37,890 bases of DNA from Planctomycetota bacterium. GTDB taxonomy: Bacteria; Planctomycetota; Phycisphaerae; UBA1845. Below the pieces are notes generated by a model that saw only the letters and a program-made list of their open reading frames with translations, was not told the origin of the DNA and searched no databases. Each line of letters begins with the position of its first letter. The stretch's first letter is position 1. Made by a program: the position numbers and the translations under genes. Location: assembly GCA_030616775.1 (NCBI GenBank), contig JAUWWQ010000042.1, positions 1 to 37,890 on the forward strand. The letters are read 5' to 3'. This document shows, one piece after another, positions 2-37,678 of the stretch.

Positions 2-250
2 GAGCTCGTCCGTGAGCAGTGGCTTGGCCATTGGTTCGTCCTCCATGACAACCAAGGAATCGAAATCGCTGCGCACTCATCGGTTCACCTGCTCATCGAA
101 CATGACGTTTTGTTAGACGGTCTAAGGGAAATCGGAGCGCTAGCGTCCAACGAGAATCTCGAAGTTTACTACTCTGACAAGAACGCAGACGACCGATTTC
201 GGTGGCGAGTACAGTGGGCTGTCGTCGGACCCCAAGTCGTCCGTCCTTAG
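2..250 (+). CDS. 3' end of an unknown protein (5' truncated by window edge)
   Basis: An open frame runs from base 2 to a TAG at 248-250, giving 82 residues with no start inside the window. The composition looks like a real soluble protein (for example GHWFVLHDNQGIEIAAHSS, then EVYYSDKNADDRFRWRVQW), with alternating hydrophobic and charged residues and no low complexity. I do not recognise the family. Its stop lies about 100 bases before an attC-like structure at 348-425, the normal layout of an integron gene cassette (an ORF followed closely by its attC), so it may be a cassette gene; that is inference. No integrase gene is visible. Confidence 0.6.
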   Translation, partial: ELVREQWLGHWFVLHDNQGIEIAAHSSVHLLIEHDVLLDGLREIGALASNENLEVYYSDKNADDRFRWRVQWAVVGPQVVRP

Positions 251-347
251 CTTGGCAACTTTTCAGAGCCTCCCCCTGTCAAGCGCTTCGTGGTGCGGTG
301 TCTAGTCAGCAACACTTTAACTTTTTGAGGAATGGCCATCGTTTCTC

Positions 348-425
348 GTCTAACCATGGGTTCAAGTTGACCGGCTACCGCGCCGCTTCGCTCTGCGGTA
401 GCCGGCAACTTAGCCCAAACGTTCC
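348..425 (+). other. attC-like recombination site (integron cassette end)
   Basis: The segment begins with GTCTAAC (348-354), a good R'' box (RYYYAAC), and ends in AAACGTT (417-423), where an R' core would be. Between them GGGTTCAAGTTG (358-369) pairs imperfectly with CAACTTAGCCC (406-416), leaving one extrahelical base, as in attC L boxes. The inner stem is a perfect 11-bp pair, CCGGCTACCGC (371-381) with GCGGTAGCCGG (395-405). Length (about 78 bp) and layout match known attC sites, including the GTTCAAG part of the L'' box seen in aadA cassettes. The R' box is incomplete: after GTT the sequence becomes the transposase remnant (CCCGG), not RRRY. It was probably disrupted or recombined there. 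Confidence 0.6.
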
Positions 426-625
426 CGGCGCCCGTAGGTCTCGCTCACTCCCGGCGCGTCGGGATTCAGGTCGAGGATCAGCTTGTCTGGGGAGCAGCCT
501 TGGCCAGCGCGATCAATCCACTTCCCCGGCACGTCCATCAAGGACCTCAGGTTCTGCCGGGTGGTCAGCATCTCCGTCTCGAACCAGATCAGTTCGCCCG
601 GTCGCCTTCGGCGGACCAACGACAT
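421..625 (-). pseudogene. IS1380-family transposase fragment (copy 1)
   Basis: Read on the minus strand this encodes LIWFETEMLTTRQNLRSLMD, then GKWIDRAGQG, then KLILDLN and SETYGRRER. This resembles the IS1380 transposase segment around the first catalytic Asp (family pattern: F-E-T-E-L, W-I-D-R, L-I-L-D-x-D-S-S-V-S-E-T-Y-G). Only about 65 residues survive of a protein usually around 450 residues long. Homology to two other fragments in this window (2403-2458 and 37441-37659) stops at the same CGTTCCCGG sequence, here fused to the GTT of the attC-like site. It cannot be functional. Confidence 0.7.
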
Positions 626-2381: not shown

Positions 2382-2402
2382 ATAGCCACCAGTGATCTTG
2401 GT

Positions 2403-2458
2403 CGTTCCCGGCGTCCGTAGGTCTCGCTGACCGAGCTGTTCAGGTCGAGGATGAGGGC
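2403..2458 (-). pseudogene. IS1380-family transposase fragment (copy 2)
   Basis: On the minus strand this 56-bp stretch reads ALILDLNSSVSETYGRRER, the segment around the first catalytic Asp of IS1380 transposases. It ends at the same CGTTCCCGG point as copies 1 and 3. Upstream coding is lost beyond the heptanucleotide repeats. Confidence 0.6.
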
Positions 2459-37440: not shown

Positions 37441-37659
37441 TTGTTGTTCCTGCCGACCCGGAAGAACCTGAAGTCCTTGATGGACGTGCCGGGGAAGTGG
37501 ATTGATCGCGTTCTGAAAAAGGGGACCGGCTCCGAGCCAAACGGCCTTCACGCCGGCGAGAAAGCCTACTCGCGAGGTGCCCGTCCCTTTTTTCAACCTG
37601 GATAAGCTGATCCTCGACCTGGACAGCTCGGTGAGCCAGACCCACGGACGCCGGGAACG
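37441..37659 (+). pseudogene. IS1380-family transposase fragment (copy 3), interrupted
   Basis: This encodes TRKNLKSLMDVPGKWIDRV, then after an 82-bp insertion KLILDLDSSV and YGRRER in a shifted frame. It corresponds to copies 1 and 2, ends at the same CCGGGAACG point and keeps the catalytic-Asp region (LDLD). Both the insertion and the truncation make it non-functional. Confidence 0.7.
37514..37595. mobile_element. 82-bp MITE-like element inside the transposase remnant
   Basis: The element starts TGAAAAAGGGGACCGG (37514) and ends with the inverted counterpart CCGTCCCTTTTTTCA (37595). The 20-bp ends match at 17 positions. Copy 1 has no such sequence between WIDR and the KLILDL codons, so it was inserted after that copy diverged. 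No gene is inside it. Confidence 0.65.
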
Positions 37660-37678
37660 GCGAGGGTCAGGCGCGCGG

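Follow-up and report, generated by a model that had tools for sequence, protein, structure and literature searches.

The left edge of the window (by which we mean the whole stretch of DNA analysed here, 37,890 nucleotides and an entire contig) carries a hairpin that raises two questions: whether it is an integron recombination site, as the preliminary description proposed for positions 348–425, and, if so, in what kind of cassette platform it sits. Read directly, its top strand has the order GTCTAAC-N8-CAAGTTG-A-stem-loop-stem-CAACTTA-N7-CGTT, which is the textbook order and spacing of an attC (Table 1). The R″ box follows the attC form RYYYAAC, the crossover GTT is present (between G421 and T422, G421^TT), and the paired L boxes, extrahelical base, spacers, central stem and covariance-model fit are likewise those of an attC, which we take to resemble attC(aadA7). 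The R″ box, the L boxes with an extrahelical base and the 11-bp inner stem had all been pointed out before, and each is seen on direct reading.

Table 1. Features of the window and how each was recognised
Feature	Positions	Strand	Remarks
End of a multicopy insertion sequence	1–125	−	transposase-like frame starts MEDEPMAKPLLTDEL and runs off the contig
Cassette remainder with open-frame tail (126–250)	126–347	+	between insertion-sequence end and R″
R″	348–354	+	GTCTAAC, read directly
Spacer between R″ and L″	355–361	+	read directly
L″	362–369	+	T362 pairs with A412; C363 extrahelical; AAGTTG 364–369 pairs with CAACTT 406–411
Extrahelical base A370, directly after L″	370	+	read directly
Inner stem, 11 bp	371–381/395–405	+	read directly
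Loop of attC hairpin	382–394	+	read directly
L′	406–412	+	read directly
Spacer before crossover G421^TT	413–420	+	read directly
Dock right flank, IS1380-type (PF13701) transposase gene fragment	422–625	−	homology to intact copies starts at the first base past the crossover
Second right-flank copy (from 2404)	2384–2455	+	attC-3′-half-like end AGTGATCTTGGTC before it
Third right-flank copy (GTT at 37658)	37601–37678	−	CTGACCCTCGCC before it

The R′ box departs from this picture: it reads GTTCCCG instead of the GTTRRRY form that would pair with R″, and pairs at GTT only, 3 of the 7 R bases. The pairing stops there because a last attC takes its bases beyond the crossover from the right flank, identical in all of the loci that we call docks (cassettes held between two constant flanks), and because this flank, a piece of an IS1380-type transposase gene, begins exactly at the crossover. 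When the bottom strand was folded as single-stranded DNA, a check that had been suggested earlier, its stability lay well beyond that of shuffled sequences (z −5.63), and the top strand gave z −5.79; in both cases 0 of 200 shuffles were equal or better, and with the flanks included z was −4.01. An exact attC-type pattern has a single match in the 4.45-Mb genome, at this site, and zero in the reversed control. Window 348–423 is a genuine integron attC, that of the last cassette, and as such would be predicted to be recombined by IntI as a folded bottom strand.

Scoring by covariance models was trained on attCs near planctomycete intI genes, for which 20 loci around such genes were fetched and the window's genome was excluded: model R1 was built from 13 attCs and model R2 from 43 hits. 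IntI above the NCBIfam cut-off is found in 49 of 294 genomes of the Planctomycetota phylum. A hand-written attC scanner was dropped in favour of these models, as it gave as many matches in reversed controls at many loci. R2 scores window 349–427 at 23.5 bits (E 9e-5 in 3 kb, filters off), the runner-up position in the same 3-kb stretch reaching 13.3 bits. For a search space of the full genome the E-value would rise to about 0.1, which makes the score marginal by itself and leaves the decision to the context. R1 with default filters did not detect the site, because its L boxes are of another type and its stem is long, and an Rfam search of the window gave no match. As to context, the search for further attCs proposed at the outset found them in the same genome (contigs C31, C17, C47, C44 and C4). 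Independent matches abut the common right flank at C31 (35.1 bits), C47 (41.0 bits) and C17 (33.2 bits), and the attC at the right flank of C44 is weak and degenerate (11.2 bits). The window's dock has one attC, C47 and C4 two each, and a background scan of 0.83 Mb of other sequence from this genome gave no attC model match. The anatomy, the folding, the R2 score, the unique pattern and the flank together bear out the original recognition of an attC-like site. The two attCs of C4 (L130; 5669–5799 and 6431–6570, + strand) have very long central stems, score 29 and 47 bits, lie without a dock attI nearby and are a separate CALIN, a cluster of attC sites lacking an integron-integrase.

The left end of the window is of a different nature. 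Bases 1 to about 125 also start contigs C4 and C16 at 98–100% identity and belong to the end of an insertion sequence, perhaps, as we presume from an N-terminal motif, of IS5 type. Its terminal repeat is AGACCGTCTAACAAAACG, with a TAA target-site duplication (TSD) at about 124–127; the opposite end, with the same terminal repeat and a different inner sequence, lies at the contig ends of C1, C34, C57, C43 and C11. This insertion accounts for both the contig break and a false gene at 2–250. The short unknown gene said to end about 100 bases before the attC is thus partly insertion-sequence end; as a single cassette gene it was rejected, and the open frame there matched nothing in Pfam or NCBIfam. 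Only 126–347 can be cassette DNA left of the attC. A contig continuing the window leftward was sought among those with compatible TSD (the insertion-sequence ends of C11, C1, C34 and C57), and none of them shows an attI. At the end of C11 (L112), a cassette-like HNH nuclease gene begins directly after GTTAGAC and is cut by an insertion sequence of the window's type; this gene may adjoin the window on its left side.

Right of the crossover lies a repeat that begins GTTCCCGGCG and whose minus strand encodes part of a transposase (...DKLILDLNPDAPGVSETYGRRE). An intact relative in another genome, G111, is a PF13701 protein (DDE transposase group 1, IS1380-type), and where that gene reads GCC^TTCC the dock reads G^TTCCC, so that the transposase homology starts at the TT after the crossover. 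All fragments of this transposase in the window's genome end at one and the same codon, and at nine places the fragment is preceded by an attC or an attC 3′ half. Five different attCs (those of the window, C31, C17, C47 and C44) adjoin the identical base of the fragment. At four of the nine copies the whole attC is missing (C68, C63:2404, C17:23117 and C63:37658), and the L′ bases T(−12), A(−10) and C(−2) are kept in all 11 right-flank copies, nine from this genome and two from relatives. An empty dock would read as attI joined straight to TTCCCGGCG. Directly to the right of the window dock's transposase fragment lies a small gene of XRE-type helix-turn-helix class (HTH_3; 647–877, − strand).

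On the other side of the cassettes, sister docks carry a second repeat, conserved over about 90 bp and ending ...TGTTATGCGGATCAAGCTAATTATTG^TT. The window's genome has at least six copies (C17, C31, C44, C47 twice and C68), a minimum because the profile scan covered about 1 Mb of this genome and the class-wide search scored 2 of 11 candidates. Each ends in G^TT and is followed by AGGC, GGAT, GGGC, CGGC or AGCC, that is, by differing cassette starts. In the profile of 53 copies drawn from many genomes, GTT reaches 2.0 bits of conservation, against about 0.1–0.3 from +7 onwards, and all 26 attC matches at 18 loci of this family lie on the same strand as the repeat. In eight loci of other genomes it lies 83–93 bp downstream of the stop of an intI remnant; the copies in the window's genome have no adjoining intI. 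Judged by this conservation up to G^TT, followed by different cassettes and unrelated inserts, the left repeat behaves as an attI. Further upstream, by 180–242 bp, the element TTGCAG-N17-TATGCT/TATCCT is conserved in C31, C44, C68 and three other genomes (G663, G654 and G666), and in G612 it sits at −48; at the three docks of this genome it is a predicted Pc-like promoter. No such element is visible at the window's own dock, which by analogy with its sisters would have its attI on the side hidden by the insertion sequence.

Between these flanks, which are homologous on both sides among the docks of this genome and those of G627 and G663, the inserts vary. The inserts of eight docks (344–2359 bp) have no mutual similarity at a blastn E of 1e-3, unlike the flanks, and the complete dock with both flanks recurs in G627 and G663, which represent two other genera of the same order. 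Cassette products include a DUF6868 protein (C44), a 743-aa AAA_13 protein (C31), a CxxCxxCC protein (C47) and unknowns; frames are intact, for example those of the AAA_13 and DUF6868 proteins. The AAA_13 gene (C31, L107; 2815–5046) makes up the cassette of its dock and may have a role in defence, since its domain also occurs in RloC/PrrC-like anticodon nucleases. Some dock flanks (e.g., L108, L109, L110 and L111) are interrupted by short palindromic or satellite repeats (GGATGAAGGATGA, CAGGATTCTTTTCTTGCGTCGAGAAAATCATCCTG and GGCCACGAAGACGTGGCC) that are dispersed in the genome.

Where, then, is the integrase? Looking for intI had also been proposed, and the window's genome, a draft MAG that is 97.8% complete and in which an intI could fall in a gap, has no IntI above the TIGR02249 cut-off (best 84.6 bits against 265), and hence not the functional intI of a complete integron. 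Among its tyrosine recombinases, those that fit best are XerC/XerD-like and have no IntI insert. Near-identical C-terminal pieces of a tyrosine recombinase adjoin tRNA-like sequences at 1–150 of contigs C15 and C48 (L022 and L023), which looks like a tRNA-targeting integrative element. Kinship tables and sequence matches place the window near Phycisphaerae MAGs, in agreement with the planctomycete-like chromosome that had been suspected. The attI family occurs in 30 of 397 genomes of the class, where planctomycete relatives retain only the last intI codons (e.g., SPIDGL-stop). It was also found on 20 genome contigs from MAGs labelled as at least eight phyla, labels and binning that may err (Planctomycetes, Deltaproteobacteria/Desulfobacteraceae, Nitrospirae, Hydrogenedentota, Myxococcota, Sumerlaeota, Acidobacteriota and Atribacteria); plasmids, phages and viral contigs gave no match to it. 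The intI traces adjoining the family are truncated, and a full IntI is present in 3 of the 36 genomes that carry it. In G677 the full IntI adjoins a different attI; G482 has a full IntI with no attI of the dock family seen; and in G663 the contig stops about 100 bp after intI, so that its attI cannot be judged.

We consider it probable, at roughly 0.8, that window 348–423 is the last-cassette attC of a dispersed, multicopy integron platform that lost its intI and was loaded by IntI either earlier or in trans. The plan of a dock would be: a Pc-like promoter (in three copies), an attI-like site, G^TT, one or two cassettes with their attCs, G^TT and the IS1380-type fragment. The exact boundaries suggest that IntI-type strand exchange at G^TT brought the cassettes into attI, between flanks that stayed fixed, and the right flank itself may stem from one IntI crossover at C^TT within a transposase gene. 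The docks would then have multiplied. Homologous flanks around unrelated inserts imply that cassette insertion or exchange went on after this multiplication, in which case IntI presumably acted on several docks, for most of them in trans. The IntI missing from the assembly would have been lost or been supplied from outside. At the window's dock, the insertion sequence would have jumped into or beside the cassette, ending the contig and hiding the attI side. The initial proposal that the window begins in an integron or a lone cassette was right as regards cassette-type DNA; the platform is no standard intI-bearing integron, and no solitary cassette at a random position either; it is one of at least six that are dispersed.

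Other explanations have to be set against the same facts. The hairpin might be a chance stem, such as a terminator or a palindromic repeat, in a genome rich in palindromic repeats, and the pairing of R′ at 3 of 7 bases and the genome-wide E of about 0.1 could be read in that way; but the pattern is unique in the genome, the fold reaches z −5.6, and the site abuts exactly on the flank that bears clear attCs at C31, C17 and C47, which makes a chance stem extremely improbable. If the cassette had instead entered a secondary, attG-like N^TT site in a dispersed transposase fragment, with no integron involved, this would explain why R′ matches GTT alone and why the right flank is a dispersed repeat. 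Such attG insertion has already been described (PMC12901181, citing Loot et al. 2024), and the intact transposase relative does read C^TTCC at the insertion point. Random insertion at secondary sites had in fact been our earlier model, replaced once the left repeat appeared. We now regard attG insertion as improbable, given that five different attCs meet one base of the same fragment, that a conserved attI-like repeat stands on the cassettes' other side at C17, C31, C44 and C47, and that the identical flank pair recurs in two other genera; an event of this kind may explain the origin of the right flank, but not every cassette.

More serious is the possibility that the docks are inert relics, a decayed ordinary integron copied as junk with no cassette exchange since. 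The genome is without IntI, intI survives only as remnants in all neighbouring cases, and the docks hold palindromic repeats and a truncating insertion sequence. Against this, homologous flanks, unrelated inserts and exact G^TT bounds need exchange after duplication, and the cassette frames are intact, although the docks could still be inert today; we think a relic possible and lean against it. The platform reading may also be extended: a conserved attI family, parted from its integrase, might persist in planctomycetes, and possibly in other phyla, as dispersed promoter-bearing docks served in trans by an outside IntI, a multi-locus integron in effect. This extension is tentative and less likely than not.

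The usual account of an integron pairs a single integrase with a single attI. A genome that holds at least six docks with an attI, common flanks and differing cassettes, and that lacks IntI, suggests instead that the capture of cassettes can be distributed among a number of expression sites, with the integrase acting in trans. These dispersed docks without an integrase, together with their widely conserved family of attI sites, are a larger find than the window's attC, and no earlier description of them was found in the open-access literature, subscription papers being outside the scope of the search. Class 1 mobile integrons have fixed 5′ and 3′ conserved segments, and the docks are like them in that constant flanks enclose variable cassettes; they differ in having neither intI nor known transposon functions and in being dispersed in one chromosome.

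The collinear chromosomal integrons of planctomycetes (loci L091–L093) share with the docks the position of attI and of the crossover relative to the intI stop, the attC type and the direction of the array, whereas in the docks intI is cut to C-terminal remnants or gone and there are several attI per genome. In archaeal integrons, attI lies directly downstream of intI and is semi-conserved across phyla (PMC9668308). With attG insertions (PMC12901181, citing Loot et al. 2024), the docks have in common a junction at N^TT with non-att sequence; the docks' left side, however, is a conserved attI-like site, and on the right every copy joins at the same base. CALINs also hold attC-bearing cassettes without intI, but docks have an attI-like site, a promoter in three copies, one or two cassettes, and many copies with constant flanks, and the window's dock, with its single attC, falls short of the two or more clustered attCs that make a CALIN. 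IntegronFinder 2 reports CALINs from two attCs up and seeks attI for class 1 only (PMC9024848). Because attI outside class 1 is not searched for, current tools would miss the docks or file them as single attCs; the 53-copy attI consensus can be used as a search probe.
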